Shown here one piece after another: positions 34,707-53,775 of a DNA stretch of 64,000 bases. Each line of letters begins with the position of its first letter. The stretch's first letter is position 1. The translations under genes and the position numbers were made by a program. Below the pieces are notes generated by a model. It saw only the letters and a list, made by a program, of their open reading frames with translations. It searched no databases and was not told the DNA's origin. The DNA is taken from positions 1 to 64,000 of the forward strand of contig CAMBQQ010000002.1 in the NCBI GenBank assembly GCA_945870035.1, read 5' to 3'. This DNA comes from Rhizobium sp. Q54. GTDB lineage: Bacteria > Pseudomonadota > Alphaproteobacteria > Rhizobiales > Xanthobacteraceae.

Positions 34707-34730
34707 GCCAAACTCCCTCTGCAGCGACCT

Positions 34731-35415: not shown

Positions 35416-35538
35416 CGCGCTACCTCACGTCCGGCTCGGCCATGGTCAACGACCACCTTGTTCCTGGATCGCGGCGAGTAGAGCCATGCCCATGCGTCTA
35501 ATTCAACGGTTAGCGTGTTTTTTCAGTGATCGAAGGGA

Positions 35539-35847: not shown

Positions 35848-35868
35848 GCAGACTTGTCATCGGAGAGG

Positions 35869-37927: not shown

Positions 37928-39124
37928 TTATGTTGAACGGGCCACGGCGGTGCGCCGCTTGCCCAGCAGCAAAGGACCGAAGGATAGCGCGAAGCCGAAA
38001 AACGCGGCGCACCAAGCCAACACGGTGAGCTGGAGCAAAGGGCCACTTGCATCTGGAACCAGTGCGGCGCCGATCCGCGCCAGTGCGGCGACTATGACTG
38101 CCGCGTATATCGCTTGCGTGAAAGACGACGCCACCAGTGCATTTCCGGTGTGGCCGAGACTGGCGCGCGTCATCACCGCCAGTGTCATCGTGCCGGCGGC
38201 ACCCACGGTCCAGGCATGAATGCCGGCGCTTGGCGCGACAAGATCGAGCGCGCCAGCGCTTGATAGCAGGAACCCGAGCGGCACGAAGGCGTAACCGACA
38301 TGCAGGACAAGGACCAGGCGGTCGCGCAAGGTGCGGTCGCCGGCCCAGCGCGCCAGCCGCAACATTTGCGCTAATCCGGCGGCGCATAGCGCCGCAGCGG
38401 TGTCAGGCCCCACGGGCCGGATCAGCCATAGCGCCAGCACGGCGGCGCTGAACGCGATGACGCTCAGGTCGATACCGCCCATGGGCACCGGCAGCCGGCC
38501 CGGATTTTCGCGCACCAGCCAGTTGCGGGTGAAGCTCGGCACGATGCGGCCGCCGATAACCGAGATCAGCAACACCAAGGCAGCGATGCCGATGCGGACG
38601 CCGTACTCGGCGCTGCCGTGGAAATGGGATTCGAGATGAAAAGCGATGTTGCCGACAAGCAGCAGGCTCACCAGGCCGACGACTTTCAGGTTCCCCCAGT
38701 TCTTGCCGGCCAGAATCTCACGCGTGATCGCCGCGATCAGCAAGGCCAGAAATCCGACGTCGATAAGCGCGGCGGCGAGCCAGCCGATCTCGACAGATAA
38801 GGTGACCGCAATGCGGCCTGCCAGCCACACCAGAACCAGCGTCAAAAGCGGCAAGCCCTGAATCGGCAGGCGTCCGGTCCAGTTGGGAATGGCCGTCAAC
38901 AGAAATCCGGTTACCACCGCCGGCAGATAGCCGTACAGCATTTCATGCACATGCCAGTCGATCGGGCCGAAAGCAGTGCGCAGTTGCAGCTCGCCGTGAA
39001 AGACCGGTAGCCAGGCCAGCACCGCGAGCCCGGCGTAAACCGCGCCGAGCAGAAAGAACGGCCGGAAGCCGTAAGACAGCAGGACCGGACCTGCATAGGT
39101 CTTCAATCGAGGGACAGCGTTCAT
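37928..39124 (-). CDS. nnrS: NnrS family heme- and copper-containing membrane protein
   Basis: A 398-aa inner-membrane protein with about 12 helices, needed for NO resistance during denitrification in other bacteria. The conserved N-terminal WHVHEMLYGYLPAVVTGFLL and FLLTAIPNWTGRLP segments are present, as are RIVPSFTRNWL and the late MTRASLGHTGNAL motif. Several His residues near membrane ends could bind heme or copper. The ORF track extends 20 codons upstream; the ATG at 39124 is used. It lies 31 bp after orf91 in the nar unit, tying NO stress tolerance to nitrate respiration. Confidence 0.88.
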   Translation of the reverse strand: MNAVPRLKTYAGPVLLSYGFRPFFLLGAVYAGLAVLAWLPVFHGELQLRTAFGPIDWHVHEMLYGYLPAVVTGFLLTAIPNWTGRLPIQGLPLLTLVLVWLAGRIAVTLSVEIGWLAAALIDVGFLALLIAAITREILAGKNWGNLKVVGLVSLLLVGNIAFHLESHFHGSAEYGVRIGIAALVLLISVIGGRIVPSFTRNWLVRENPGRLPVPMGGIDLSVIAFSAAVLALWLIRPVGPDTAAALCAAGLAQMLRLARWAGDRTLRDRLVLVLHVGYAFVPLGFLLSSAGALDLVAPSAGIHAWTVGAAGTMTLAVMTRASLGHTGNALVASSFTQAIYAAVIVAALARIGAALVPDASGPLLQLTVLAWCAAFFGFALSFGPLLLGKRRTAVARST

Positions 39125-39155
39125 GATTTCCGTTCCGCTTCCCTGCCCTGTTGTA

Positions 39156-39431
39156 CTAGCCGTTGAGCGCGTGCTCGAAAGCACGCTTCAGACACACCGC
39201 GCCGGGATCCGGCGCGCGGTTGAGCAGGCCCATCAAGGTGATCCATTCCTCGTCGGTAGCTTCCGAGGCGTATCGCCGTACCGTACCGGCAACATAGGCC
39301 GGCAGGTCCAGACCGTCAGCTTTGGCCTGCTCGCGCATCGCCGCCAACATGGACAAGTCGTTGACGCGCAGAATCGTCTCGGTCGCCGCGGTCTCGTCAC
39401 TCAGTTCGGCCAACAGGTCGCCCAGCAGCAT
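39156..39431 (-). CDS. Conserved small soluble protein of the nar operon (unknown)
   Basis: A 91-aa acidic protein beginning MLLGDLLAELSDETAATETILRVNDLSML. It is mostly helical by eye, with no signal peptide, membrane segment or metal motif, and a single Cys. I recall similar short proteins after the PpiC gene in alphaproteobacterial nar clusters but know no function. It lies 12 bp after the PpiC gene and 31 bp before nnrS, clearly within the operon. A role in assembly or regulation of the nitrate reductase is only a guess. Confidence 0.65.
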   Translation of the reverse strand: MLLGDLLAELSDETAATETILRVNDLSMLAAMREQAKADGLDLPAYVAGTVRRYASEATDEEWITLMGLLNRAPDPGAVCLKRAFEHALNG

Positions 39432-39443: not shown

Positions 39444-40274
39444 TCAATGCACCCGATGCGCGTCGGCGCCGGCAAGCTCGACGCCCTCGATCTTAGCAGC
39501 CGAGATCAGCCGCGCGATGTATTGTGCATCGGCGCGCCGCCGCACGCTCTCGTTCAGGTAGTCGGCGATACGCGAGGCAACAGCCTCGAAAGGCAGCAGC
39601 TTGCCATCATGCTTGCGGTCGAGCCGTATGATGTGGAAGCCGTAACGCGTCGCCACCGGCGCGGCGCACAACTCGCCAGGCGCGAGTGCGACCAACGCCC
39701 GCTCGAATTCCGGCGTGGTCTGCCCGGTCGTGATTTGCCCAAGATTGCCGCCCTGCGCGGCCGACGAACAGCCCGAATAAGCGCCGGCCAAAGTCGCGAA
39801 GGATTCCGGCCGCTCGACCAACGTCGCGAGAACGCCTTCGGCTTCGGCCCGCGCCGCCGCATAGGCATCCTTGTCGGCGGGCAGAGCCGCGAACAGGATG
39901 TGCGCCGCCTCGTAGATATCGGGGGAACGAAACTGAGCATGGTGCCGCTCATAATAACGCCGGCAGGTTTCATCGTCTGCCTGCGGGACCACCACCTCGC
40001 GGTCGATCAGCCCGCGCATGATCGCTTCCTCGTCGGTCTCGCGGCGGCCGTCCTCGGTGAGCGGCTCCGGCGCGATGTCAAGGCGGCGGGCTTCCTGCAT
40101 CAGCAGTTCGCGGATGACGAGCGCCCGCGCGGCCTGTTGCCAGGCTGCGATCGGCTTGCCGGCCGGATGATGCTGCATCTCGCGCACGATCTCGTCGCGC
40201 GCGATGGCGACCCCGTTGACCGTGACATTGACGGGTCGCCCCGAGGGAAGTTGTGCATGGACTGAGCAGCTCAT
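39444..40274 (-). CDS. Parvulin-type peptidyl-prolyl isomerase (NifM/PpiC-like) of the nar operon
   Basis: A 276-aa protein with an N-terminal helical chaperone-like part (residues about 20-130) and a parvulin domain. The domain shows YEAAHILFAALP, GGNLGQITTGQTTPEFERALVALAPGELCAAPVATRYGFHIIRLDRK. No signal peptide is visible, so it would act in the cytoplasm. It overlaps narI by 4 bp. A PPIase next to narI, which is known in several nar operons, probably helps fold or mature the NarGHI complex. Confidence 0.85.
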   Translation of the reverse strand: MSCSVHAQLPSGRPVNVTVNGVAIARDEIVREMQHHPAGKPIAAWQQAARALVIRELLMQEARRLDIAPEPLTEDGRRETDEEAIMRGLIDREVVVPQADDETCRRYYERHHAQFRSPDIYEAAHILFAALPADKDAYAAARAEAEGVLATLVERPESFATLAGAYSGCSSAAQGGNLGQITTGQTTPEFERALVALAPGELCAAPVATRYGFHIIRLDRKHDGKLLPFEAVASRIADYLNESVRRRADAQYIARLISAAKIEGVELAGADAHRVH

Positions 40275-41029
40275 CGGGGATACTCCGCAGGAACGGTGCG
40301 TGCCGGACCACGGCTCTGGCTGGATGCCGCGGGAGGACCCCGGCGGCCCTGGCTGCGAACGATCTGATAGCCACGGCGGCCGAGATACCAGACCGGCGCG
40401 CTCCAGACGTGAACAAGGCGCGTGAACGGGAACACCAGAAAGATCGTCATGCCGAGGAACAGATGCGCCTTGAAGATCGGGTGGACATCGGCGATCAGCG
40501 CCGAGACGCCCGGCTGCAAGGTGAGGATGCCCTGCGCCCAGGTCATGAACTTCACCATCTCATGGCCGTCGAGGTGATTGAGCGAGACGAAGATGGTGCC
40601 GAGCCCGAGGACCAGCTGGGCATAGAGCAACAGCAGGATGGCGATGTCGCCGAACGACGAGGTGGTGCGGATACGCGCATCGAACAGGCGGCGATGCACC
40701 AGAAGCGTGATGCCGACGAAACACATGACGCCGGCAACGCCGCCGGCGACGATCGCCAGCCATTGCTTGAACGTATGCGAAATGCCGAGCGTATCGAATA
40801 CAACAATCGGCGTCAGCAGGCCGACGAAGTGGCCGAGGAAAATGACCAATATGCCGACATGGAACAGGTTCGAGCCCCAGCTGAGTTGCCTGCGGCGCAG
40901 AAGCTGGCTCGATCCGCTGCGCCAGGTGTACTGCTCGCGGTCGAAACGCACCCAGCTTCCGAGCAGGAAGACGGTGAGGCAGAGGTAGGGATACCAGCCG
41001 AACACGATGTAGGTGATGAGATCGCGCAT
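40271..41029 (-). CDS. narI: Respiratory nitrate reductase gamma subunit (cytochrome b)
   Basis: A 252-aa membrane protein with five helices that takes electrons from quinol and anchors NarGH. The two heme b ligand pairs are present: His in NLFHVGILVIFLGHF (10 residues apart, as His56/His66 in E. coli NarI) and His in AHLFLGMTIFLVFPFTRLVH (18 apart, as His187/His205). The ORF track adds 26 codons; the ATG at 41029 is preferred. It overlaps the PpiC gene by 4 bp. Confidence 0.93.
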   Translation of the reverse strand: MRDLITYIVFGWYPYLCLTVFLLGSWVRFDREQYTWRSGSSQLLRRRQLSWGSNLFHVGILVIFLGHFVGLLTPIVVFDTLGISHTFKQWLAIVAGGVAGVMCFVGITLLVHRRLFDARIRTTSSFGDIAILLLLYAQLVLGLGTIFVSLNHLDGHEMVKFMTWAQGILTLQPGVSALIADVHPIFKAHLFLGMTIFLVFPFTRLVHVWSAPVWYLGRRGYQIVRSQGRRGPPAASSQSRGPARTVPAEYPR

Positions 41030-41039
41030 GATGATGTCC

Positions 41040-41759
41040 TCAGGAACGCGGCGGGGTGGGACGGGACGCCGGCAGGCCGGGCGCGGGTCGTAACGCGCCA
41101 CGGACATGGGCCATCAGCCCGTCTTTGCAGCTATCGGCAGCGCCCGGACCGAACTGAACCGCCTCGTCTTCCCACGCGGCGTCGAGAGCCGCGAGATCGA
41201 GCGGATCGGGATCGGGCAGCGCCAGCAATGCGGAGACCTCTTCGCCTGTCGGCTTGACCGACGACAGCGCGACCAGCGCCCGCAGCACCGCCTCGTAAGG
41301 CGATTGCCGCTTGCGCAGCCGCTCAGCGAGCGCGCCGAGAATATGCGCCGGCTGACCTAGCAGATCACAGGCTTCCGCCTGCGGCAGCGTGGCGAGGAAT
41401 TCCAGGAACAGTGGCAGATAGTCCGGCAACTCGTTCTTGACCGCGGCGAGGCCCTTGTCCTCGTACATCCCCAAGAGATCGACCATCGCCTGGCCGCGGT
41501 CGCGGCTTTCGCCATGGACATGCTCGAACAGATGCAGCGACAGCGAACGCGTGCGGTCGAACAGCAAGACGTAGCGTTCCTGCAGATCGTAGATGTCGCC
41601 TTCGGCGATGTCGGTGAGCAGGACGTTGAGCTGGCGGCGAATCGCCGCCGGCACCAGCGCCTCTGTCTCAATGACAGTACGCAGGTCGCCGATGGCCTGT
41701 TGCAGTTCGACGGAGGGATAACTCAGCAGCGCCGAGAGAACCTTGAAGGTCCTGGCCAT
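41040..41759 (-). CDS. narJ: Nitrate reductase molybdenum-cofactor assembly chaperone NarJ
   Basis: A 239-aa cytoplasmic helical protein of the NarJ/TorD family, which holds NarG until cofactor and FeS insertion is complete. The conserved start FKVLSALLSYPSVELQ and the segments LQERYVLLFDRTRSLSLHLFEHVHGESRDRGQAM and ELPDYLPLFLEFLA are diagnostic. The ORF track runs far upstream inside narH; the true ATG is at 41759, overlapping the narH stop by one base. Ten base pairs separate it from narI. Confidence 0.92.
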   Translation of the reverse strand: MARTFKVLSALLSYPSVELQQAIGDLRTVIETEALVPAAIRRQLNVLLTDIAEGDIYDLQERYVLLFDRTRSLSLHLFEHVHGESRDRGQAMVDLLGMYEDKGLAAVKNELPDYLPLFLEFLATLPQAEACDLLGQPAHILGALAERLRKRQSPYEAVLRALVALSSVKPTGEEVSALLALPDPDPLDLAALDAAWEDEAVQFGPGAADSCKDGLMAHVRGALRPAPGLPASRPTPPRS

Positions 41760-43279
41760 TACACGATCTCCATCGGGTTCTTCGCGCGTTTCGGCGAACC
41801 GAACAGGTTGGTCTCGGTCGCGCCGGTGGCGCAGCCATTGCCGAACGAGAAGCCGCAGGAGCCGCGCAGTTCGAGCGCGTCTTCGGTGGTTTCGCGATGC
41901 GACGTCGGAATGACGAAGCGATCCTCGTAATTGGCAATCGCCATGTATTTGTACATGTCTTCGATCGCCGCGCCGGTGAGGCCGACACGCTGCGCGATCT
42001 TCTCGTCGATCAGCCCATCGACGGTCTTCGCCCGCATATAGGCGCGCATGGCAAGCATGCGTTCCAGGCCGAGCGCGACCGGCTCTTCTTTGCCCGCCGT
42101 GAGCATGTTGGCGAGATATTTGAGCGGAATGCGCAAAGACCGCACATCCGGCATCTCGCCGTCGTGGCCGATCTTGCCAGCGGCGGCCGCCGACTGAATC
42201 GGCGACAGCGGCGGCACATACCAGACCATCGGCAGCGTGCGGTATTCCGGATGCAGCGGGAACGCGACCTTCCATTCCATCGCCATTTTGTAGACCGGCG
42301 AGCGGCGCGCGCCCTCCAGCCAATTCTCGGCAATGCCGTCACGCCGCGCCTGTTCGATGATGGCCGGATCGTGCGGGTTAAGGAATACGCCGAGCTGGGC
42401 TTCGTAGAGGTCCTGCTCGTCCGGCGTTGAGGCGGCTTCCTCGATGCGGTCGGCGTCGTAGAGCACGACGCCGAGATAGCGGATACGGCCAACGCAGGTT
42501 TCCGAGCACACCGTCGGCTGGCCGGCTTCAATGCGCGGATAACAGAAGATGCACTTCTCGGATTTGCCGGTCGACCAGTTGTAGTAAATCTTCTTGTACG
42601 GACAGCCGGACACGCACATGCGCCAGCCGCGGCACTTGTCCTGGTCGATCAGGACGATGCCGTCTTCCTCACGCTTGTAGATGGCGCCCGACGGACAGGC
42701 GGCGACGCAGGTCGGGTTGAGGCAGTGCTCGCACAGCCGCGGCAGATACATCATGAAGGTGTTTTCGAACTGGCCGTACATTTCCTTCTGCACGCCCTCG
42801 AAATTGTAGTCTTTCGAGCGCTTGGCGAATTCGCCGCCGAGGATTTCCTCCCAGTTCGGGCCCCACTCGATCTTTTCCATGCGTTCGCCGGAAATCAGCG
42901 AGCGCGGCCGCGCGGTCGGCATCGCCGTCATTTCCGGCGACTTCTGCAGATGCTCGTAGTCGAAGGTGAAGGGCTCGTAATAGTCGTCGATTTCCGGCAG
43001 GTCGGGATTTGCAAAGATATTGGCGAGTACGCGCCACTTCGAACCGATGCGCGGCTCGATCTTGCCGTTTTTCTTGCGTACCCAGCCGCCGTTCCAGCGC
43101 TTCTGGTTTTCCCAATCCTTCGGATAGCCGATGCCGGGCTTGGTTTCGACGTTGTTGAACCAAGCGTATTCCATGCCCTCGCGGCTGGTCCAGACGTTCT
43201 TGCAGGTAACCGAGCAGGTGTGGCAACCGATGCACTTATCGAGATTGAGCACCATCGCGATTTGAGCGCGGATCTTCAT
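41759..43279 (-). CDS. narH: Respiratory nitrate reductase beta subunit (iron-sulfur)
   Basis: A 506-aa electron-transfer subunit carrying four FeS clusters between NarI hemes and NarG. Cluster-binding runs are CIGCHTCSVTC near residue 16, CEHCLNPTCVAACP, then CRGWRMCVSGCP and CIFCYPRIEAGQPTVCSETC. The Trp in CRGWRMC marks the [3Fe-4S] cluster, as in E. coli NarH. The ATG at 43279 starts MKIRAQIAMVLNLDKC; the ORF track is longer. It overlaps narG by 4 bp. Confidence 0.95.
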   Translation of the reverse strand: MKIRAQIAMVLNLDKCIGCHTCSVTCKNVWTSREGMEYAWFNNVETKPGIGYPKDWENQKRWNGGWVRKKNGKIEPRIGSKWRVLANIFANPDLPEIDDYYEPFTFDYEHLQKSPEMTAMPTARPRSLISGERMEKIEWGPNWEEILGGEFAKRSKDYNFEGVQKEMYGQFENTFMMYLPRLCEHCLNPTCVAACPSGAIYKREEDGIVLIDQDKCRGWRMCVSGCPYKKIYYNWSTGKSEKCIFCYPRIEAGQPTVCSETCVGRIRYLGVVLYDADRIEEAASTPDEQDLYEAQLGVFLNPHDPAIIEQARRDGIAENWLEGARRSPVYKMAMEWKVAFPLHPEYRTLPMVWYVPPLSPIQSAAAAGKIGHDGEMPDVRSLRIPLKYLANMLTAGKEEPVALGLERMLAMRAYMRAKTVDGLIDEKIAQRVGLTGAAIEDMYKYMAIANYEDRFVIPTSHRETTEDALELRGSCGFSFGNGCATGATETNLFGSPKRAKNPMEIV

Positions 43280-46200
43280 TCTGCGGCCTCCAAAGTGTTC
43301 GTAGTGTTGGTCGCGACGGGCAAAGCTTCGGGTTGATCGGGAGTGGGCGTATCGAGCCAGTCGACTTTCGACATCTTGCGCACGATGACGAATTCGTCGC
43401 GGTTCGATCCGACGGTACCGTAGTAGTTGAAGCCGTAGGATTGCTGGGCGTAACCGCCGATCATGTGGGTCGGCTTGAGGATCGCGCGGGTCACCGAGTT
43501 GTGGATGCCACCGCGCTGGCCGGTCTGCTCGGAGCCCGGCACGTTCACGATCTTCTCCTGCGCATGATACATCATGCACATGCCCTGCTTGACCCGTTGC
43601 GAGACGACTGCGCGCGCCACCAAAGCGCCGTTGCTATTGAACGCCTCGATCCAGTCATTGTCGACGATGCCGGCCTGCTTGGCATCGATCTCGCTGATCC
43701 AGACGCAAGGACCGCCACGCGACAGAGTGAGCATCAGCAGGTTGTCGGTATAGGTCGAGTGGATGCCCCACTTTTGATGCGGCGTGATGAAGTTCAGCAC
43801 CACCGCGTCATTGCCGTTCGGCTTGCGGTCGATCACCGGGTTAACCGATTTGGTGTCGATCGGCGGACGATAGACGCAGAAGCCTTCGCCGAAGGCGCGC
43901 ATCCACAGATGATCCTGATAAAGCTGCTGACGGCCGGTCAGCGTGCGCCACGGGATCAGCTCGTGGACGTTGGTATAGCCGGCGTTGTAGCAGACCTTTT
44001 CCGACTCAAGGCCGGACCAGATCGGTGAAGAGATAATCTTGCGCGGTTGCGCGACGACGTCGCGGAAGCGGATCTTCTCGTCTTCTTTCGGAATGGCGAG
44101 ATGGGTGTGATCTAGGCCGGTGAAGCCGCCGAGCGATGCCCATGCCTTGACCGCGACCTCGCCGTTGGTTTCCGGCGCCAGGCTGAGAATGACCTCGCAG
44201 GCGTCGATGTCGCTGTCGATGCGGGCAAAGCCTTTGGTCGTCCCCTCCTCCAGCACGACACCGTTGAGTTGCTTCAGGAAGTCAACCTCGTGCTCGGTAT
44301 TCCACGCCATGCCCTTGCCGCCATTGCCGAGCTTGGCCATCAGCGGTCCGAGCGAGGTGAAGCGCTTGTAAAGACCGGGATAGTCACGCTCGACCACCGT
44401 CACAGCCGGCATGGTCTTGCCGGGGATCGGATCGATCTCGCCTTTCTTCCAGTCCTTGACGTCGAAGGCCTGCGCGATTTCGCCGGGCGTGTCGTGCATG
44501 ATCGGGGTCAGCACCACATCCTTTTCAACACCGAGCACTTCCGGCGCGACTGTGGAGAAAGCCTTGGCAATGCCCTTGTAGATCTCCCAGTCGCTGCGCG
44601 CTTCCCACACCGGATCGACCGCCGCGGTGAGCGGATGGATGAACGGGTGCATGTCCGAGGTGTTGAGATCGTTCTTCTCGTACCAGCTCGCAGTCGGCAA
44701 CACGATGTCGGAGTACATACAAGTGGTCGACATACGGAAGTCGAGCGTGACCAGCAGGTCAAGTTTTCCTTCCGGCGCTTTCTCGTGCCAGACAACATCC
44801 ATCGGCTTTTTCTTGCCGTCTTCGCCGAGATCCTTGCCCATGACGCCATGCTTAGTGCCGAGCAGGTGCTTGAGGAAGTACTCATGACCCTTGCCCGAGG
44901 CGCCGAGCAGGTTGGAGCGCCAGATGAACATGTTGCGCGGCCAGTTGGCCGGGTTGTCCGGATCGTCGCAGGACAGATTGAGCTTGCCCGACTTCAGGTT
45001 GGCGGCGACATAGTCCTTGGCTTCCATGCCGGCGGCGGCGGCGTCTTTCGAGACCTGCAGTGGATTGGTCTGCAATTGCGGCGCTGACGGCAGCCAACCC
45101 ATGCGCTCGGCGCGCACGTTGTAGTCGATCAACGCTCCGTCCCAGGGCCCTGCCGGCGCGGTCGGCGACAGCACTTCCGACACGTCGAGCGTTTCGTAGC
45201 GCCATTGATCGGTGTGCGCGTAGAACGCCGAGGTCGAGTTCATCTGCCGCGGCGGACGGCCCCAGTCGAGGCCGAAGGCGAGCGGTAGCCAGCCCGATTG
45301 CGGACGCAGCTTTTCCTGGCCGACATAATGCGACCAGCCGCCGCCGGACTGTCCGACGCAACCGCACATCACCAGCATGTTGATGATGCCGCGGTAGTTC
45401 ATGTCCATGTGGTACCAGTGGTTCAGACCGGCGCCGACAATCACCATGGACCGGCCCTTGGTCTTCTCGGCATTGAGCGCGAATTCGCGTGCCGTGGTGA
45501 TAATCTGGTCACGCGGCACACCGGTGATCTTTTCCGCCCAGGCCGGCGTATAGGGCTGCATGTCGTCGTAACCCTTGGCGAGATGCTCGCCGCCGAGGCC
45601 GCAATCGACGCCGTAATTGGCGACGAACAGGTCGTAGACCGAGGCAACGATCGTTTCGCCTTCAACCAGTTGCAACGTCTTGGTCGGCACGTTGCGCACC
45701 AGCACGCTCGGATGATCGGTGCCCTGGAAGTGATCGTGCTCGCGATTGCCGAAATACGGGAAGCCAACGGCGGCAATACCGTCCTTCACGTCATTGAGCG
45801 ACAGGCGAAGTTTCGTCTCTTTTCCGTCGGAAGCCTGCTCCTGGAGATTCCACTTGCCCTTTTCGCCCCAGCGGAAGCCGACCGAGCCCTTTGGCACGAC
45901 GACGGCACCGGTAGTCTCGTCGAACGCGACCGTCTTCCATTCCGGATTATTGGATTCATCACAGCCTTTGACGAAGTCGGAGGCGCGCAGGAAGCGCTCA
46001 GGCACATAATGCTCGCCCTGCTTCACCAGCCGTACCAGCATCGGCATGTCGGTATATTGCCGGGCATAGTCCTGGAAGTACTTGGCCTGCCGGTCGATAT
46101 GGAATTCGCGAAGGATGACGTGGCCCATGGCCATACCGAGCGCGGCATCGGTGCCCTGCTTCGGCGACATCCACAGATCGGCGAATTTCGACGCTTCCGA

Positions 46201-47052
46201 ATAGTCCGGGCAGATGACGACACTCTTGGCGCCGCGATAACGGGCCTCGGTATAGAAGTGTGCGTCGGGCGTGCGCGTTTGCGGTACGTTTGAGCCCCAC
46301 AGCAGCAAGAAGCCGGAATTGTACCAGTCGGCCGATTCCGGCACGTCGGTCTGCTCGCCCCAGGTCTGCGGCGACGCCGGCGGCAAATCGCAATACCAGT
46401 CGTAGAACGACATGCAGACACCGCCGAGCAGCGACAGGTAGCGCGAGCCGGCGGCATAACTCACCATCGACATTGCCGGGATCGGCGAGAAGCCGAACAC
46501 GCGGTCCGGGCCATGCGTCTTGACAGTGTAAGCATTGGCCGCGGCGATCAACTCGTTGACCTCGTCCCAGGTCGAACGGACAAAACCGCCAAGGCCTCGC
46601 TTCTCGACATAGGCCGAGCGTTTTGCCGGGTTTTCGACGATCGATTTCCAGGCGGCAACCGGCGTCATCAGGACGCGCGCTTCGCGCCACAGCTTGAGCA
46701 GCCGCGAACGCACCAACGGATACTTCACGCGGTTGCCGGAATAGAGATACCAGCTATAGCTCGCGCCGCGCGCGCAGCCGCGCGGCTCATGATTCGGCAG
46801 ATCCGGCCGCGTGCGCGGATAATCGGTCTGCTGGGTTTCCCAGGTAACGATGCCGCCCTTGACGTAGATCTTCCACGAGCAAGAGCCTGTGCAGTTCACA
46901 CCGTGCGTAGAGCGCACGATCTTGTCGTGCTGCCAGCGCTTGCGGTAGCCGTCTTCCCAGCGCCGGTCTTCATTGGTGGTGATGCCGTGACCGTCCGAGA
47001 ACGGTTCGCTGCCGCGGCTGAAGAAAGTCAATCGGTCGAGAAAGTGACTCAT
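43276..47052 (-). CDS. narG: Respiratory nitrate reductase alpha subunit (molybdopterin)
   Basis: A 1258-aa catalytic subunit, of usual NarG length, reducing nitrate to nitrite in the cytoplasm with bis-MGD molybdenum. The N-terminal FeS (FS0) site uses His in STHGVNCTGSC plus Cys residues there and a later Cys (EPRGCARGASYSW). The molybdenum Asp region reads WGSNVPQTRTPDAHF. The initial segment contains a degenerate RR (NEDRRWEDGY), which in NarG is a vestigial Tat signal and not cleaved. It lies 11 bp after narK and overlaps narH by 4 bp. Confidence 0.96.
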   Translation of the reverse strand: MSHFLDRLTFFSRGSEPFSDGHGITTNEDRRWEDGYRKRWQHDKIVRSTHGVNCTGSCSWKIYVKGGIVTWETQQTDYPRTRPDLPNHEPRGCARGASYSWYLYSGNRVKYPLVRSRLLKLWREARVLMTPVAAWKSIVENPAKRSAYVEKRGLGGFVRSTWDEVNELIAAANAYTVKTHGPDRVFGFSPIPAMSMVSYAAGSRYLSLLGGVCMSFYDWYCDLPPASPQTWGEQTDVPESADWYNSGFLLLWGSNVPQTRTPDAHFYTEARYRGAKSVVICPDYSEASKFADLWMSPKQGTDAALGMAMGHVILREFHIDRQAKYFQDYARQYTDMPMLVRLVKQGEHYVPERFLRASDFVKGCDESNNPEWKTVAFDETTGAVVVPKGSVGFRWGEKGKWNLQEQASDGKETKLRLSLNDVKDGIAAVGFPYFGNREHDHFQGTDHPSVLVRNVPTKTLQLVEGETIVASVYDLFVANYGVDCGLGGEHLAKGYDDMQPYTPAWAEKITGVPRDQIITTAREFALNAEKTKGRSMVIVGAGLNHWYHMDMNYRGIINMLVMCGCVGQSGGGWSHYVGQEKLRPQSGWLPLAFGLDWGRPPRQMNSTSAFYAHTDQWRYETLDVSEVLSPTAPAGPWDGALIDYNVRAERMGWLPSAPQLQTNPLQVSKDAAAAGMEAKDYVAANLKSGKLNLSCDDPDNPANWPRNMFIWRSNLLGASGKGHEYFLKHLLGTKHGVMGKDLGEDGKKKPMDVVWHEKAPEGKLDLLVTLDFRMSTTCMYSDIVLPTASWYEKNDLNTSDMHPFIHPLTAAVDPVWEARSDWEIYKGIAKAFSTVAPEVLGVEKDVVLTPIMHDTPGEIAQAFDVKDWKKGEIDPIPGKTMPAVTVVERDYPGLYKRFTSLGPLMAKLGNGGKGMAWNTEHEVDFLKQLNGVVLEEGTTKGFARIDSDIDACEVILSLAPETNGEVAVKAWASLGGFTGLDHTHLAIPKEDEKIRFRDVVAQPRKIISSPIWSGLESEKVCYNAGYTNVHELIPWRTLTGRQQLYQDHLWMRAFGEGFCVYRPPIDTKSVNPVIDRKPNGNDAVVLNFITPHQKWGIHSTYTDNLLMLTLSRGGPCVWISEIDAKQAGIVDNDWIEAFNSNGALVARAVVSQRVKQGMCMMYHAQEKIVNVPGSEQTGQRGGIHNSVTRAILKPTHMIGGYAQQSYGFNYYGTVGSNRDEFVIVRKMSKVDWLDTPTPDQPEALPVATNTTNTLEAAE

Positions 47053-47063
47053 GTGATTTTCCC

Positions 47064-49805
47064 TTATTCAGCCGGTTGCAGGGTGGCGGGCGGCAGCGAA
47101 CCGCCACGCTCGATGTCGCGCAGCAGGCCGCCGCGGCGGGTGTAGAACCACCAGGTGATGGCGACACAGGTGACGTAGAAACCCATGAAGCCCCACAACG
47201 CCATCTCCGGTCCGCCGGTCAGCGAGATCGAGGTGCCGTAGCTCTTCGGGATGAAGAAGGCGCCATAAGCCGCGACCGCGGAGGTAAATCCGATGATCGC
47301 CGCCGATTCCATTTCGGCCTGCTTCTGGCGAACGTCGATGCTCATGCCCGGCTCAAGCCGGATGAGTTCCGCGCGCATGATTGCCGGGATCATCTGGAAG
47401 GTCGATGCGTTGCCGACGCCGGTAGCGAAGAACAACAGCATGAACATCGCGAAGAATCCCCAGAACGCGTTCGGCTGATCCTTGATGCCAAGGAAGTACA
47501 GCACGCCGCCGACCGCCGCGATCATCAGCGTGAAAACCCAGAAAGTGACGCGGCCGCCGCCGTAGCGATCCGACAACCAGCCGGTCGCCGAGCGCGACAG
47601 CGCGCCGACCAGCGGCCCGAGGAAGATGAACTTCAGCGAGTCGACCTGCGGGAACATGGTCTTGGCGAGCAGCGGGAAGCCCGCCGAATAGCCGATGAAC
47701 GAGCCGAAGGTGCCGGTATAGAGCCAGCACATCAGCCAGTTATGCTTGCGCTTGAAGATCACCGCCTGATCGGCGAACGAGGCGCGCATGTCGGCGATGT
47801 CGTTCATGCCGAACCAGGCCGCCGTGGCCGAGATGGCGATGAACGGCACCCAGATGAAGCCGGCATTCTGCAGCCAGAGCTTGGTACCGTCTTTCGCCAC
47901 CTGCGGCTCGCCGCCAAGCCAGCCAAACACGCCGGCAACGATGACCAGCGGGATAACGAATTGCACGACGCTGACGCCGAGATTGCCGAGGCCGGCGTTG
48001 AGCGCCAACGCGTTGCCCTTCTCCGCCTTGCGGAAGAAAAAGCTGATGTTCGCCATCGACGAGGCGAAGTTGCCGCCGCCGAAGCCGCACAGCAAGGCCA
48101 GCGCCAGGAAGAAGATGTAAGGCGTATCCGGGCTCTGCACCGCAAGCCCGATGCCGACCGCCGGGATCATCAGCGACCAGGTCGAAATCGATGTCCACAG
48201 CCGGCCGCCGAAGATCGGCGGCATGAAGGAATAGAAGATGCGCAAGGTCGCGCCGGACAGGCCGGGTATGGCCGCGAGCCAGAACAGCTGATCGGTCGAG
48301 AATGTGAAGCCGACCGCCGGCAGCTTGGCGACGACCACCGACCACACCATCCAGACCGCGAAGGCGAGCAGCAGCGCCGGTATCGAAATCCACAAATTGC
48401 GGCGCGCAATGGCGCGTCCCTTGCTCTCCCAGAAAGCCGGATCTTCCGGTTTCCATTCGTCCAGGACATGACCGGAGAGCGCGCCGATGTGCTTGCCCTC
48501 GTGAATCGGCCCCATTTCCGGGAACTGCGGCAGCATGCTCAGGGCCGGCTCGTAGGCCTCGCGCTCCATGCGGCGAATAGCGAAATGCATCCAGGCCAAT
48601 GAAACGGCGGCGATCAGGAACAACAGCATGAAGCAGCTGGTCCAAATGCCGGTGAGATCGTTGAGCACGCCGAAGACGATCGGCAGGATGAAACCGCCGA
48701 GGCCGCCGATCATGCCGACCAGGCCGCCGACCGCGCCAACGTTCTTCGGGTAATAGACCGGGATGTGCTTGTAGACCGCGGCTTTTCCTAAGCTCATGAA
48801 GAAGCCAAGCACGAAGATCAGCGCCGTGAAGGTGACGACGCCGGTCGCCATATGGAAAGTGATCGGGCCCTTGATGCCTTCGACCGTGTAGGTGGTCGGC
48901 GGATAAGCCAAGATGAAGGTGACCAGCACCGAGACGCCAAACATCCAGTACATGATGCGGCGGGCGCCGTATTTGTCCGACAAGTGACCGCCATAGGCGC
49001 GGAACAGGCTGGCCGGAACCGAATAGGCGGCGCCGATCATGCCCGCGGTCGTGATGCTGAGCCCATAGACGCCGATCAGATAGCGCGGCAACCACAGCGC
49101 CAACGCGACGAAGGCGCCGAAAGCGAAGAAGTAATAGAGCGAGAAGCGCCAGACCTGGACGTTCTTGAGCGCATCGAGTTCGAGCCACGCGCTGACCGGG
49201 CGGGCGCCTTTGGCGCGGCGCGCCATCTCGACCGGGTCTTCCTTGGTGGTGAACCAGAAGACGATGCCCATCAGCGCGATGGCGACGGCCCAGACCTGCG
49301 CGGTGACCTGCCAGCCATAAGCCACCATCACAAACGGTGCGATGAACTTGGTCACCGCCGCACCGACATTGCCGGCACCGAAGATACCGAGCGCGGTACC
49401 CTGCCTTTCCGGCGGATACCAACGCGAGACGTAAGCGATGCCGACCGCGAAGGAGCCGCCGGCAATACCGACGCCGAGCGCGGCAATCAGAAACTCTGTG
49501 TAAGTTTGCGCATATGTCAGCAGGAAGGTGGCCAGCGCGGCCGCCAGCATGACCACAGTGTAGACGCGGCGGCCGCCATATTGATCGGTCCAAATGCCGA
49601 GGAAGATGCGTACCAGCGAACCGGTAAGAATGGGGGTACCGACTAACAGGCCAAACTGCGTTTCATTCAGCCCCAAATCCTTCTTGATCTGAATGCCGAT
49701 GATGGCGAACAGCGTCCACACCGCGAAGCAGACGGTGAAGGCAATAGTGGACATCCAAAGCGCACGGCCTTGGCCTTCAATACTAGAAATAGATTCTGAT
49801 TGCAT
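47064..49805 (-). CDS. narK: Fused double nitrate/nitrite transporter NarK1-NarK2 type
   Basis: A 913-aa inner-membrane protein made of two complete 12-helix MFS units. The first (residues about 20-420) has RIFLGIWTDQYGGRRVYTVVM and GIAGGSFAVGIAYVSRWYP; the second (about 490-900) has LSGATLRIFYSFMPPIFGGR and GFGGGNFASSMANISFFF. The Arg in each helix 2 that binds nitrate is kept. In such fusions one half is thought to import nitrate with protons and the other to exchange nitrate for nitrite. The start at 49805 has AGGA upstream. It is the first gene of the nar unit, 123 nt downstream of the predicted transcription start. Confidence 0.93.
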   Translation of the reverse strand: MQSESISSIEGQGRALWMSTIAFTVCFAVWTLFAIIGIQIKKDLGLNETQFGLLVGTPILTGSLVRIFLGIWTDQYGGRRVYTVVMLAAALATFLLTYAQTYTEFLIAALGVGIAGGSFAVGIAYVSRWYPPERQGTALGIFGAGNVGAAVTKFIAPFVMVAYGWQVTAQVWAVAIALMGIVFWFTTKEDPVEMARRAKGARPVSAWLELDALKNVQVWRFSLYYFFAFGAFVALALWLPRYLIGVYGLSITTAGMIGAAYSVPASLFRAYGGHLSDKYGARRIMYWMFGVSVLVTFILAYPPTTYTVEGIKGPITFHMATGVVTFTALIFVLGFFMSLGKAAVYKHIPVYYPKNVGAVGGLVGMIGGLGGFILPIVFGVLNDLTGIWTSCFMLLFLIAAVSLAWMHFAIRRMEREAYEPALSMLPQFPEMGPIHEGKHIGALSGHVLDEWKPEDPAFWESKGRAIARRNLWISIPALLLAFAVWMVWSVVVAKLPAVGFTFSTDQLFWLAAIPGLSGATLRIFYSFMPPIFGGRLWTSISTWSLMIPAVGIGLAVQSPDTPYIFFLALALLCGFGGGNFASSMANISFFFRKAEKGNALALNAGLGNLGVSVVQFVIPLVIVAGVFGWLGGEPQVAKDGTKLWLQNAGFIWVPFIAISATAAWFGMNDIADMRASFADQAVIFKRKHNWLMCWLYTGTFGSFIGYSAGFPLLAKTMFPQVDSLKFIFLGPLVGALSRSATGWLSDRYGGGRVTFWVFTLMIAAVGGVLYFLGIKDQPNAFWGFFAMFMLLFFATGVGNASTFQMIPAIMRAELIRLEPGMSIDVRQKQAEMESAAIIGFTSAVAAYGAFFIPKSYGTSISLTGGPEMALWGFMGFYVTCVAITWWFYTRRGGLLRDIERGGSLPPATLQPAE

Positions 49806-49934
49806 GGCGCCCGTCCTGTCAGCCCAAAAGAATGGTCGCATGACAAGACTTGGTCGGCCGCCCGGAAGCTTTGACCTCGATCAACAGACGTCAATAATCA
49901 GTACAAATAAAGTTCGCGCGCCTAGCGCAACTGT

Positions 49935-49976
49935 CTTATATCGACTCAGACCTCGCCATGAATTGATATCGATCAA
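49935..49976 (-). promoter_or_regulatory. FNR-type class II promoter of the narK-narGHJI operon
   Basis: On the minus strand a TTGAT-N4-ATCAA box (49963-49976, TTGATATCGATCAA) is followed by TATAAG at 49940-49935. If the -10 is -12 to -7, the start falls at 49928 and the box centre at exactly -41.5, the textbook position for FNR-type activation. The leader to narK is about 122 nt. Confidence 0.8.
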
Positions 49977-49984
49977 GATCGTGC

Positions 49985-49998
49985 TTGATATCAATCAA
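49985..49998 (+). promoter_or_regulatory. Second FNR-type box, facing the crp-like gene
   Basis: TTGATATCAATCAA (TTGAT-N4-ATCAA) lies 22 bp, about two DNA turns, from the narK box and nearer the rightward crp gene. Weak -10 candidates (TAGGCT at 50024, TATGAT at 50029) follow, placing the box near -44 to -49 for rightward transcription. It may serve the crp gene, narK, or both. Confidence 0.65.
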
Positions 49999-50062: not shown

Positions 50063-50749
50063 GTGCGCCAAGCCGAAATAGATCAGGTTCGTGGGCTGCG
50101 GTTATTTTGCGACATGCGAGCAGATAATTTCGCAGAGCTAATGAATGCTGCGAAATTCGAATCCTTTCCAAAGGATTTTTCTTTGATCAATGAAGGGGAT
50201 TTGCCAGATTTTCTGCACATCGTCGTCCACGGCACGATCGAGATGTTCTGCATCCACGGCGAGCAGGAAATCACCATCGAGATTATGCAACCCGGGACCA
50301 CGTTTATTCTTGCCGCGGTTATTCGGGACGACGTCTACCTGACGTCCGCCCGCACTCTCACCGCCGCGCAGGTCCTGATGATACCCGCACAGGTCGTTCG
50401 TGATATTTTTGAACGGGATGTCGCCTTCGCGCGAGCGATCGTCAATGAATTGGCGCTCCGATTTCGTGGACTTGTGCGCGCCCTCAAGAACAAACAGTTG
50501 CGAACCGGTTCCGAGCGCCTGGCAAATTGGATATTCCACACTTCCTTGCAGCAAGAGGACCAGAAGCGGTTTAAACCGGCAATCAGCAAACAGTCGCTCG
50601 CGTCAAGCTTAGGAATGACGCCAGAGCACCTGTCGCGCAACTTTACATTTCTGGAGCAACACGGCGTAAAACGCCTGGGAAAATATATCATAATCGAGGA
50701 CCCGATAGCGCTGAAGGCATTTGCAAAGCCCAATTCGCTTATCGATTGA
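50063..50749 (+). CDS. Crp/Fnr-family transcription regulator (no FeS cluster motif)
   Basis: A 228-aa regulator starting at GTG behind a strong AAGGAGGA site. It has an N-terminal sensor domain of cyclic-nucleotide type (NEGDLPDFLHIVVHGTIEMF), a dimer helix and a C-terminal helix-turn-helix (ISKQSLASSLGMTPEHLSRNFTFLEQHGV). The E-x-x-S-R set in EHLSR is the FNR type that reads TTGA-N6-TCAA. There is no N-terminal Cys cluster, so it is not itself an Fnr-like oxygen sensor; a heme/NO-sensing (Dnr/NnrR) or FixK-like role is more likely. It is divergent from narK with two FNR boxes between. Confidence 0.85.
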   Translation: MRQAEIDQVRGLRLFCDMRADNFAELMNAAKFESFPKDFSLINEGDLPDFLHIVVHGTIEMFCIHGEQEITIEIMQPGTTFILAAVIRDDVYLTSARTLTAAQVLMIPAQVVRDIFERDVAFARAIVNELALRFRGLVRALKNKQLRTGSERLANWIFHTSLQQEDQKRFKPAISKQSLASSLGMTPEHLSRNFTFLEQHGVKRLGKYIIIEDPIALKAFAKPNSLID

Positions 50750-50854
50750 TAATAAATCCGCGCGGCCGAATTTTCTATTTACGGCGCCTTGCACATCGAC
50801 GCACTCTATTATCGTTTGCGAAAAGACAAATTCTGGCCGTGCGCGGCGCAACTC

Positions 50855-51592
50855 TCAGCGCATCGACCGCAAACTGCCTCGTACAGCGCCGCGATCGTCA
50901 GACGCAAATTTTCGGAGCGCGCCGACATCGCTCACCTTCACACTAGAAGCGTCAACTGAAACTCCGACGGCTCGCAATTTGCTGAAAGAGCGCGAGAGCG
51001 ACTCCGGTTTAAGTCCGAGCCGAGCCGCAATCAGGGCTTTGTCATATGGCAGCGCGATGGCGCAGCTACCGTACTCCGCCGGGCATAGCGACATTAGAAA
51101 AGTCGCAACCCGCTGTACGCCGCTTTGTGCTTTGAGCTGTTCAATTTGCTGAACGAGATTGTGCAGATGCTGCAAGGTCGACGCGATCATCGCCAGCGCT
51201 ATATCCGGGTCTTCCCGAACGCAACGAACAAGATGGCCAGCAGGCAGGCGCACCACTCGAACAGCACTCACCGCCTCGGCGTTCGCAGGATAGCGCCCAT
51301 CCGTAAACGCGACGGCCTCTGCAAAACTGTCGCCTTTGGCCAGAATGTGGATAACCGTTTCCTCGCCGGAGGCCGAGATACGAAACAGCTTCACCCAACC
51401 GCTGATAACAATGAAAAAATCCGTAGCTAGCTCGCCTTGTCGAAAAAGCCATTCATGCGGCCTGACCGTCAATACGGTCGCGGGCGCGAGGATATGTTCT
51501 ACCGTATCCGCCTTCAAACTACGGAATACAGCGATTCGCGTCACTATGCGCAAATCCTCCGCTGTCAATTTCGTCTGCGCATTCGTCAGCAT
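50855..51592 (-). CDS. Crp/Fnr-family regulator, Dnr/NnrR-like
   Basis: A 245-aa regulator with a complete sensor domain (LFRQGELATDFFIVISGWVKLFRISASGEETVIHILAKGDSFAEA), dimer helix and a helix-turn-helix (YDKALIAARLGLKPESLSRSFSKL) that keeps the E-x-x-S-R contact set. No Cys cluster is present. Features resemble the Dnr group of NO-responsive regulators. It is divergent from the hemerythrin gene and shares with it a single TTGAC-N4-GTCAA box placed at about -41.5 in both directions, so it may regulate itself. Confidence 0.83.
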   Translation of the reverse strand: MLTNAQTKLTAEDLRIVTRIAVFRSLKADTVEHILAPATVLTVRPHEWLFRQGELATDFFIVISGWVKLFRISASGEETVIHILAKGDSFAEAVAFTDGRYPANAEAVSAVRVVRLPAGHLVRCVREDPDIALAMIASTLQHLHNLVQQIEQLKAQSGVQRVATFLMSLCPAEYGSCAIALPYDKALIAARLGLKPESLSRSFSKLRAVGVSVDASSVKVSDVGALRKFASDDRGAVRGSLRSMR

Positions 51593-51642
51593 GCAAACTG
51601 CCTCACTATTCTAACACATAGAGGCGCACCAGTTAGGGCGCC

Positions 51643-51656
51643 TTGACTTCGGTCAA
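51643..51656. promoter_or_regulatory. Bidirectional Dnr/FNR-type operator
   Basis: TTGACTTCGGTCAA sits inside the larger perfect repeat CCTTGAC-TTCG-GTCAAGG. Leftward, TATGTG (51620-51615) puts the centre at exactly -41.5 for the crp-like gene. Rightward, TACATT (51680-51685) puts it near -42.5 for the hemerythrin gene. One box therefore probably activates both genes. Confidence 0.75.
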
Positions 51657-51721
51657 GGACGAACGAGCCCGAAGATGCTTACATTCTAGATGGCTCCCCT
51701 GTCGTCTGCCAGAAGGCGGCG

Positions 51722-52219
51722 GTGATCACACTTATGCGTGAAGCCTTCTTACGCGCGGAAAGTACCATTATGGCCGGTGCAGTAATTCGACCGATTAGTC
51801 GCAAGCTGCGGACCGTGCGACTTGGTCACGATGCAATCGATTCAGATCATATCGAAATATCCGAATGCTGGTTCAAATCCGTTAATTGCACGCCTATTCA
51901 GTTCCCATTCTTGATCGCCCGGTTGAAAAAATTAATGGCGACGCACTTCGCCCGAGAAGACGCCATTATGAAGCACGCCGCCAGCTCACTCTGCTCTTGT
52001 CACAGGCAAGAGCATGAAATGCTTCTCGGACTTTGCGACCGCGCAGCGGGACTTAGCGAATTCAACTGGCGAGCAGCACAGCGACTTCTTCGCGATGAGT
52101 TCCCCGGTCGGGTCCGTGAACACATCATCTGCATGGACCAGATGCTTGTTATGCAACTCAACACGAGCAGCGCAGGCATTCCTGCGGGCGAACGCCTGCA
52201 CGAGGATCATGCCGGATGA
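51722..52219 (+). CDS. Hemerythrin-like di-iron protein
   Basis: A 165-aa protein with the full seven-ligand hemerythrin set: His43 (IDSDHIE), His75 and Glu79 (THFAREDAIM), His94 and His98 (CHRQEHEM), His134 and Asp139 (REHIICMDQM). The four-helix bundle follows an unusual N-terminal extension of about 30 residues. An ATG at 51734 or 51770 could be the true start. Bacterial hemerythrins bind O2 or NO, and some help repair FeS proteins. The extra cysteines (CSCH) are notable. Control by a Dnr-type box fits a nitrosative or low-oxygen role. Confidence 0.78.
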   Translation: MITLMREAFLRAESTIMAGAVIRPISRKLRTVRLGHDAIDSDHIEISECWFKSVNCTPIQFPFLIARLKKLMATHFAREDAIMKHAASSLCSCHRQEHEMLLGLCDRAAGLSEFNWRAAQRLLRDEFPGRVREHIICMDQMLVMQLNTSSAGIPAGERLHEDHAG

Positions 52220-52689
52220 CCGTTCCGCTCTACGGTAGCCTGGACGCTTCATTGCGGCCGTCGTTTTCCAGTTCGCCGCGGAACGTATGCCTTCCTGCCG
52301 AGATGCCGATACCGCTATTCTGGCCCTTGTGACCGCAGCCGCGACACCGGCGCGACCATTGAGTTCCAGGTCGTCGGATGCATTTCCCAATGGGAGTGAC
52401 CGGCTTCCGGCTTTCTCCCCATAATTGCGACATGTCGCGGTTGCCTCGATCCTTTATGCCGTGCTCGACGGGCGGATGAGCACAGCCGAGCAACCGCCGC
52501 ACTCGAAAGCATGGAATTTCCTGCGCCATTCTTAAATGGATTTTAATACGGCAAGCCTGGCTATCAACGCCTCGACATCCGTACGAGCATTAGAACATAG
52601 ACATCCTCGCCCGGATCGAGCGACTCTTCGCCGGGTAAATCATTGGGTCTTCCCGACCCTTAAATTCTCAGTTCTGGCGTCTGCCTGTC
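52220..52689. other. Gene-free 470 bp between hemerythrin and DUF6455 genes
   Basis: Both strands were read. Short frames exist, such as a plus-strand stretch ending DTGATIEFQVVGCISQWE, but none has a start and ribosome site or a recognisable domain. The stretch may hold decayed coding sequence. The promoter and operator of the DUF6455 gene lie at its right edge. Confidence 0.5.
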
Positions 52690-52729
52690 TTGACCAATGT
52701 CAAGGCGCGTGGACCTGCACTTGTATAGA
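52689..52729 (+). promoter_or_regulatory. Dnr/FNR-type promoter of the DUF6455 gene
   Basis: CTTGAC-CAAT-GTCAAG (TTGAC-N4-GTCAA core at 52690-52703) is a perfect inverted repeat, followed by TATAGA at 52724-52729. This places the box centre at about -40 from the predicted start, close to the -41.5 of class II FNR promoters. The box has the same TTGAC arms as the hemerythrin box, not the TTGAT arms of narK. Confidence 0.7.
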
Positions 52730-52766
52730 CTATAAAACCAAAATGCGATTCAGAATGGAGATGCTC

Positions 52767-53207
52767 ATGCATATCAGTGAAGCAGTGGTCCTCCGCGAGG
52801 CACAGCGGCTGCGGAATGAGATGGTTTGGCAAGCCATCATGATATTCCGCAACCGGGTGGCAAACTATCGCCGCGCCAGCGTGTCGCGCCAAGAGTTTGA
52901 TACATTCAGCCAGGTCGAGATGTCTGCCCTAGCAAGCGATGTCCACCTGGAGCCGTCACAGCTTCGCGCTTTGTCAAACGCAGGAGTCGATGCCGCAGCA
53001 CTCTTGAAGCGGATGCTCGCCGCGTTGGGAATCGATCCGAAAATTCTCAAAACCATGGATGTGTACACGGCACGCGATCTTCAGGCGACATGCTCTCTGT
53101 GCAAAAGCAAGTCGCGATGCCGGCGCTCGCTTGCGACGGGAACGGCTGCGACGGCGTACCGCGATTTCTGCCCGAATGCCGCAACACTTTGTGCACTGAC
53201 CGCTTAG
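52767..53207 (+). CDS. DUF6455-family protein with cysteine motif
   Basis: A 146-aa soluble protein. The C-terminal part (residues about 45-140) shows the DUF6455 pattern: a helical region ending LLKRMLAALGIDPKIL, then CSLCKSKSRCRRSLA and FCPNAATLCAL. The Cys residues (C-x2-C-x5-C plus a later C-P-N) could hold iron, zinc or an FeS cluster. The ORF track starts far upstream, before the promoter. The ATG at 52767 has GGAG 7 nt before it; 52743 is an alternative. Its Dnr-type promoter suggests induction at low oxygen or with NO. The molecular function is not known to me. Confidence 0.7.
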   Translation: MHISEAVVLREAQRLRNEMVWQAIMIFRNRVANYRRASVSRQEFDTFSQVEMSALASDVHLEPSQLRALSNAGVDAAALLKRMLAALGIDPKILKTMDVYTARDLQATCSLCKSKSRCRRSLATGTAATAYRDFCPNAATLCALTA

Positions 53208-53235
53208 ACTAATAGCGATTTAGAGCAATCAGCGC

Positions 53236-53775
53236 ATGAACGACCACGCAATGGCGGTTATTGGCGTGTTGAACGCGTCAGACCGCGCGAGCGCCGGCAT
53301 TTATAGTGACGAGAACGGGCCAGCTATCGAGCAGTATTTACGGGAGGTTCTCACGAGCCCGTGGCGCGCCATTCTGCGCGTTGTCCCCGACGGAATCGAA
53401 AGTGTGCGCGACGGATTGATCGACCTTGCCGATCGAGAAAACTGCGGTCTCATCTTCACCACGGGCGGCACCGGGCCGGCCCCGCGTGACCTCACGCCTG
53501 AAGCGACAATGGCCGCTTGCTCGAAATTGTTACCTGGGTTCGGCGAGTTAATGCGCGCGGTGAGCCTCAAGCAGGTTGCGACCGCCATTTTGTCTCGACA
53601 AACAGCCGGCATTCGGGGAAGGACGCTCATCGTCAATCTGCCCGGACGGCCTGCGTCAATCCGCGTTTGCCTCGACGCCATTTTTCCGGCGATACCCTAT
53701 TGCTTGGACTTGATCGGTCAACCGGGCATGGCAACCGACCCCGTGCGCTGCAAAGCCTTTCGCCCGAAGACCTGA
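53236..53775 (+). CDS. mog: Molybdopterin adenylyltransferase (Mog/MoaB family)
   Basis: A 179-aa enzyme that activates molybdopterin with ATP before molybdenum insertion. The family core is visible: IGVLNASDRASAGIYSDENGPAI at the start, the FTTGGTGPAPRDLTPEAT nucleotide-binding motif and the IVNLPGRPASI motif. It is close to E. coli Mog in length. It follows the DUF6455 gene by 28 bp and may share its promoter, which would raise molybdenum-cofactor supply when nitrate reductase is induced. Confidence 0.88.
   Translation: MNDHAMAVIGVLNASDRASAGIYSDENGPAIEQYLREVLTSPWRAILRVVPDGIESVRDGLIDLADRENCGLIFTTGGTGPAPRDLTPEATMAACSKLLPGFGELMRAVSLKQVATAILSRQTAGIRGRTLIVNLPGRPASIRVCLDAIFPAIPYCLDLIGQPGMATDPVRCKAFRPKT

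Follow-up and report, generated by a model that had tools for sequence, protein, structure and literature searches.

Background

Alphaproteobacterial FNR, FixK and DNR regulators recognize nearly the same site, and the targets predicted for DNR in this class are narGHJ, a nitrite transporter, NnrS and UspA (Dufour et al. 2010, PMC2908626). The DNR motif resembles the FNR box (TTGATnnnnATCAA), while HcpR sites in two cyanobacteria read TTGACnnnnGTCAA (Rodionov et al. 2005, PMC1274295). For FixK2, the consensus TTGA/C-N6-T/GCAA has been established experimentally (PMC6710368). One FixK2 target of Bradyrhizobium diazoefficiens, blr0497, is induced under microoxia (protein log2FC of 3.8, transcript 14.1-fold) and in bacteroids (12.7-fold; PMC6515984); it also belongs to the predicted core FixK regulon, where its FixK2 dependence is noted (PMC2908626). 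Among the proteins relevant to such regulons, Mhr of P. aeruginosa is an O2-binding hemerythrin regulated by Anr (PMC12403760), and the small DUF1127 proteins comprise an RNA-binding member in Rhodobacter, CcaF1 (PMC10253847), as well as some members that act on PhoR (PMC12501420). Proteins of the DUF6455 family, on the other hand, are almost without literature, the mention that we located being an expression table.

Here we analyze a locus in which a hemerythrin, a DUF6455 protein and a Mog protein are encoded side by side next to genes for nitrate respiration. The locus resembles the predicted DNR regulon (PMC2908626) in that a DNR-type regulator, narK-GHJI, nnrS and a usp gene are all found, with FNR-like boxes; it differs in that a cysteine-bearing hemerythrin, hemA, mog and DUF6455, which are absent from the DNR list, are found as well. 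The comparison connects DUF6455 with low-oxygen control throughout Alphaproteobacteria, relates one half of the protein to DUF1127 and finds a strict Cys4 site in it.

Gene content of the locus

The window, i.e., the whole stretch of 64,000 nucleotides that was analyzed (GC content of 61%), belongs to an assembly of alphaproteobacterial origin (4.12 Mb, 189 contigs); the family of this genome, as sampled here, also includes Bradyrhizobium. The features of the locus are as follows.

37928-39184 (-), nnrS, downstream of nar (Pfam NnrS, 368.9 bits)
40271-49841 (-), nar cluster overall, with narI, narJ, narH, narG and the narK-narK fusion each assigned by NCBIfam equivalog or subfamily matches
40271-41107 (-), narI
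41040-41762 (-), narJ
within 41759-43579 (-), narH
43276-47052 (-), narG
47064-49841 (-), narK-narK fusion
49871-49998, three FNR/DNR-type boxes, TTGACCTCGATCAA, TTGATATCGATCAA and TTGATATCAATCAA, between narK and the FtrB-like regulator gene
50063-50749 (+), FtrB-like Crp/Fnr regulator (NCBIfam FtrB, 272.8 bits, cut-off 211)
50855-51592 (-), putative DNR-like Crp/Fnr regulator, divergent to the hemerythrin gene (PDB match to DNR; synteny)
51643-51656, box TTGACTTCGGTCAA, between the divergent regulator and hemerythrin genes (exact pattern match)
51722-52219 (+), hemerythrin open reading frame (profile scores, seven ligands, AlphaFold/Foldseek)
52690-52703, box TTGACCAATGTCAA, centred 70.5 nt 5' of the DUF6455 start (exact pattern match)
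52767-53207 (+), DUF6455 protein of 146 aa (PF20056 above cut-off; AlphaFold mean pLDDT of 88.3)
52818-52967 (+), DUF1127-like N-terminal segment of the DUF6455 protein, residues about 18-67 (hhalign)
53091-53177 (+), Cys4 motif C109-x2-C112-x5-C118-x16-C135-P-N of the DUF6455 protein (family alignment)
53236-53775 (+), mog, encoding MogA, molybdopterin adenylyltransferase (MogA equivalog; starts 28 nt after DUF6455)

The 547 bases between the hemerythrin and DUF6455 genes contain only short, unlikely reading frames, and no Rfam RNA, tRNA or tmRNA was found within the window. The NarK fusion has 925 aa and is of double length with two transporter halves, the second of which is matched best by the NarK/NarU models. 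Three Crp/Fnr regulators are encoded in the window; the third lies together with an Rrf2 regulator at 34227-36597, upstream of the nnrS-nar cluster. The Rrf2 protein falls between the RirA and NsrR models, under both cut-offs, and these two regulators could possibly exert NO/iron control of the nnrS-nar region.

The GC content is 52-58% across 50063-53207 as compared to 60-65% in the flanks, which is consistent with recent acquisition. Searches of plasmid records with the window proteins gave no match, and the hemerythrin-DUF6455-mog trio was found in no other genome searched.

Regulators and their predicted sites

Exact TTGAC-N4-GTCAA boxes are present at 51643 (TTGACTTCGGTCAA) and 52690 (TTGACCAATGTCAA), i.e., 5' of hemerythrin and of DUF6455-mog, with their centres 70-73 nt upstream of the start codons at 51722 and 52767. 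In the whole genome (4.12 Mb) the exact pattern occurs 9 times as compared to a single occurrence of the reversed pattern, and the Dnr-type boxes proposed in the initial annotation hold. Among the other exact sites, one is located 5' of hemA and one (TTGACCTTGGTCAA) 5' of a usp gene, and several of the remainder fall inside coding sequence. The looser pattern TTGAYN4RTCAA gave 51 sites versus 3 for the control, marking, among others, narK, a ccoN-like gene and a CBS-domain gene (the latter two named by eye from sequence). Boxes are thus found 5' of narK (49871-49998) and usp, two positions shared with the predicted DNR regulon.

The regulator encoded at 50855-51592 matches P. aeruginosa DNR (PDB) with 99.3 bits over residues 22-223, nearly its full length, while the uncharacterized Crp-type structure 3fx3 outscores DNR with 207.8 bits. 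By sequence, the protein resembles DNR, and we infer that it acts at the TTGAC-N4-GTCAA boxes, although it is one of three Crp/Fnr regulators encoded in the window, which speaks against too firm a pairing. Together with the FNR/DNR boxes and with nnrS and narKGHJI in the same window, this agrees with the proposal that the genes form a low-oxygen/NO regulon beside nar.

Orthologues of this regulator (65-72% identity) are divergent to a hemerythrin gene (43-51%) in six genomes of the family (L296-L301). In five of these six, a box lies upstream of the hemerythrin domain; the box of L301 is identical to TTGACTTCGGTCAA of the window, and in L300 nnrS is also found near the pair. In two loci of a more distant family (L073 and L075), an orthologous regulator (45%) occurs with nnrS, hemerythrin and hemA (nnrS and hemA being named by eye), with the boxes TTGACTTTGGTCAA or TTGATCAAAGTCAA, and TTGACCAAGGTCAA. 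In L303 and L304, a tandem of hemerythrin and mog (the latter 78-81% identical) lies divergently after narKGHJ, under FNR-type boxes. Within the family, eight other genomes thus have the hemerythrin linked to a DNR-like regulator or to nar-mog, and three pairings are recurrent: that of the regulator and hemerythrin, that of hemerythrin and mog beside nar, and that of mog and nar. At the threshold used, the hemerythrin was absent from six other genomes of the genus, which indicates that the locus is dispensable. As these relatives lack the hemerythrin and as GC content is lower from the regulators to DUF6455, the patch looks acquired.

A hemerythrin with conserved cysteines

The hemerythrin scored 23.7 bits against Pfam PF01814, narrowly under the gathering cut-off of 25.3, and 35.5 bits against TIGR02481, also under the cut-off. 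Its ligand pattern (H, HxxxE, HxxxH, HxxxxD) is complete, and all seven ligands (H43, H75, E79, H94, H98, H134 and D139) are invariant among 11 aligned sequences. The core of the AlphaFold model is a helix bundle (mean pLDDT of 83.8), for which the best Foldseek matches in the PDB were bacteriohemerythrin and DcrH-Hr (probability of 1.00; TM of 0.63-0.77 when normalized by target length; best E-value of 0.013 and none < 0.001). The ligands and the predicted four-helix bundle fold support a kinship of this sub-cut-off protein with PF01814, and the protein may, we infer, bind O2 or NO. Only Hemerythrin family matches were obtained with the window protein (149-165 aa). RIC/YtfE (DnrN) was considered and rejected as an identity for it, as the ScdA_N domain expected in that protein of about 220 residues is missing.

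The extra cysteines pointed out in the initial annotation are at positions 49, 56, 91, 93, 105 and 137. They are confirmed by comparison: each of the nine hemerythrins linked to DNR or nar (window, L296-L301, L303 and L304) has C91 and C105, which are missing from the second, generic hemerythrin where these genomes encode one. Judged from the alignment, the DNR- or nar-linked proteins can be described as a subfamily whose conserved cysteines lie next to the iron site. Several genomes (L296-L299) carry two differing hemerythrins, one of the Cys91/Cys105 type and one generic, within about 3-9 kb.

An N-terminal extension had also been claimed; it is doubtful because residues 1-30 are predicted with low confidence (AlphaFold) and because the start of the L301 relative (MAGYFIRP) aligns with Met17 of the window protein (MAGAVIRP), i.e., with the ATG at 51770. 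The extension is probably a start-codon artefact, this ATG being the more likely start. Compared by description, P. aeruginosa Mhr is likewise a hemerythrin that serves microoxic life under the control of an FNR-type regulator (PMC12403760), whereas the window hemerythrin is tied to DNR, nar and mog and has the conserved Cys 91/105.

Mog and its linkage to narGHJI

What had been called a molybdopterin enzyme is MogA (PRK09417 equivalog, 243.9 bits against a cut-off of 158), hence an enzyme of cofactor synthesis and not a molybdoenzyme. Its best PDB sequence match is 2pbq, and Mog structures rank at the top; the match to MogA (2pbq) is full length at 244 bits, and the window Mog is unremarkable as compared to it save for its position after DUF6455. 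No other MogA-type gene was found in the genome; a second match, on another contig, is 33% identical. In 12 loci (L303, L304 and ten others, several of the latter with nnrS also present) mog is linked to narGHJI. This recurrent linkage fits a supply of Moco to nitrate reductase and suggests a dedicated molybdenum-cofactor step for nitrate respiration.

Of 399 genomes of the family, just 63 have a MogA match at E <= 1e-60, which often adjoins narGHJI (L306-L334). Family genomes without such a match may use another enzyme for the molybdopterin adenylylation step.

The DUF6455 protein and its family

The DUF6455 protein exceeds the cut-off of PF20056 (26.0 versus 23.7 bits), and its AlphaFold model is all-helical, with no significant match among PDB folds. 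The spacing C-x2-C-x5-C-x16-C-x-N is identical in 26 of 26 family members, including the window protein. In FNR, WhiB-like proteins and endonuclease III, three of the cluster ligands are likewise spaced C-x2-C-x5-C. From the invariant Cys4 spacing, a metal or Fe-S site in DUF6455 is plausible; the C-x2-C-x5-C element is suggestive of Fe-S, though compatible with zinc. The initial description of a seven-ligand hemerythrin, a Cys-rich DUF6455 protein and Mog lying side by side is confirmed by the ligands and by the PF20056 and MogA scores.

Direct Pfam matches to DUF1127 (PF06568) were found for 7 of the 26 family members (best E-value of 8e-10) and not for the window protein, which is tied to DUF1127 by the profile-profile test only. 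In this test (hhalign), the N-terminal half of DUF6455 matched DUF1127 with a probability of 96.4% (E = 1e-9), and an alignment of the window protein and its closest relatives alone did so with 92% (E = 5.8e-7); shuffled columns gave at most 2.2% and hemerythrin 0.1%. As compared to DUF1127 small proteins such as CcaF1 (PMC10253847), whose profile matches this half, DUF6455 has an extra Cys4 half.

The family shows a patchy distribution in the genomes covered (298 from the order and 385 from the class), and its genes are mostly lone and in unrelated contexts. A scan of named genomes with the window protein found no close relative. A box of the form TTG[AC]N6[TG]CAA was found 5' of DUF6455 in 27 of 36 clusters, formed at 60% identity, as compared to 22 of 573 control genes (P = 4e-26; Fisher's exact test); boxes were counted 30-220 nt before the start, the controls were other genes at the same loci, their starts being taken roughly from the ORFs, and common descent leaves the clusters partly dependent on one another. 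The strict form TTGAN6TCAA occurred in 18 of 36 clusters as compared to 10 of 573 controls (P = 6e-18). Most of these boxes are located 60-105 nt before the start, and 9 of the 36 clusters are without one.

Among Bradyrhizobium DUF6455 loci fetched by name, 67 of 67 retain TTGATCCAGCGCAA at -69 to -76, in agreement with the FixK2 consensus (PMC6710368). Given the published gene order (leuC blr0488, asd bll0501 and leuB bll0504; PMC6320959), the orthologue in B. diazoefficiens is probably blr0497, an assignment made from gene order and numbering only. This probable orthologue is FixK2-dependent and induced in microoxia, with an invariant FixK2 box at its place; unlike the window gene, it is located between leuD and asd, away from nar, mog and hemerythrin, and has FixK2 instead of DNR. 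By its sequence contexts, the family is most aptly seen as a general component of low-oxygen (FNR/FixK/DNR) regulons in Alphaproteobacteria. This repeated low-oxygen wiring makes its function directly testable.

Interpretation of the locus

The initial annotation had proposed that the genes might protect or mature the molybdenum/Fe-S nitrate reductase, which in its strongest form would make the trio one module with DUF6455 as a metal or Fe-S maturase for NarGH. The trio is adjacent and shares one type of box, and relatives have nar linked to mog as well as to hemerythrin; nevertheless, DUF6455 genes are missing from the regulator-hemerythrin loci, from L303 and L304 with their nar-hemerythrin-mog arrangement and from the ten other nar-mog loci, the family occurs elsewhere in unrelated contexts, and narJ, the dedicated NarG chaperone, is already present. 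The one exception is L359, where a DUF6455-like frame without a box lies 2 kb from mog, beside transposase-like frames. The placement of DUF6455 between hemerythrin and mog, with its own box, was seen in the window genome only, and co-function with hemerythrin-mog is not backed by conservation because the adjacency occurs in one genome. Such a joint module is improbable: of the proposal, the part concerning Mog stands on its 12 nar loci, that concerning hemerythrin stands by linkage only, and DUF6455, which apart from L359 is linked neither to nar nor to mog or hemerythrin in the loci examined elsewhere, drops out. As a partner of nar or of hemerythrin, DUF6455 was likewise dropped when the neighbourhood survey showed no linkage.

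It would also be conceivable that the genes are neighbours by chance, unrelated low-oxygen genes having gathered in a patch that is AT-richer and of recent acquisition, with boxes that serve FNR or FixK and not DNR. The GC difference, the lack of the hemerythrin in other genomes of the genus, the single occurrence of DUF6455 at such a place and the close similarity of FNR, FixK and DNR sites (PMC2908626) all speak for this. However, the regulator-hemerythrin and hemerythrin-mog-nar linkages recur in other genera, and the exact TTGACN4GTCAA sites are rare and fall 5' of hemA, usp, hemerythrin and DUF6455, so that we consider this explanation unlikely. Somewhat more weight, though still well short of an even chance, is given to DUF6455 as a structural zinc protein with an adaptor role, whose cysteines bind Zn and take no part in oxygen or NO sensing: Cys4 motifs of this size are frequent in Zn sites, and short DUF1127 proteins such as CcaF1 bind an RNA or protein partner without a Cys4 half. 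The family-wide wiring to low-oxygen boxes argues against it, as does the fact that C-x2-C-x5-C is also a cluster-ligand spacing, with which zinc is still compatible. That DUF6455 is itself a sensor seems to us improbable.

The explanation that we favour, with somewhat better than even confidence, is that the locus represents the accessory end of an alphaproteobacterial DNR-type (low O2/NO) nitrate-respiration regulon, to which DUF6455 was added as a general low-oxygen metal adaptor or regulator. The activated DNR-like regulator would bind the TTGAC-N4-GTCAA boxes and turn on two rightward units beside narKGHJI-nnrS. The first would provide a di-iron hemerythrin that binds O2 or NO and has conserved thiols next to its iron site. 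In the second unit, DUF6455-mog, Mog would adenylylate molybdopterin and thereby allow the cofactor to be delivered to NarG. DUF6455, by contrast, would not be specific to nar, the family being apparently under the low-oxygen regulators FNR, FixK and DNR in many Alphaproteobacteria; together with its own box, it may have been inserted into a hemerythrin-mog pair of older origin. Its four invariant cysteines most likely hold a metal site (Fe-S or Zn), and its DUF1127-like helical half could make it a small adaptor or regulator, binding RNA or protein, in low oxygen. Our reading of DUF6455 is thus that of a low-oxygen-induced metal (Fe-S or Zn) protein with a putative adaptor or regulatory role, and not that of a nitrate-reductase maturase.

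Other DUF6455 genes

Three further DUF6455 paralogues are present in the window genome (L001, L002 and L003, on contigs C78, C160 and C51 of G000). The copy on C78 has no box, while the copy on C51 has a perfect FixK2-type box (TTGATCTAGCGCAA). In a Bradyrhizobium-like genome (L068, 410-9960), a DUF6455 gene whose protein ends in CC is located directly 3' of cbb3-oxidase-like genes (named by eye) and has its own FixK-type box.
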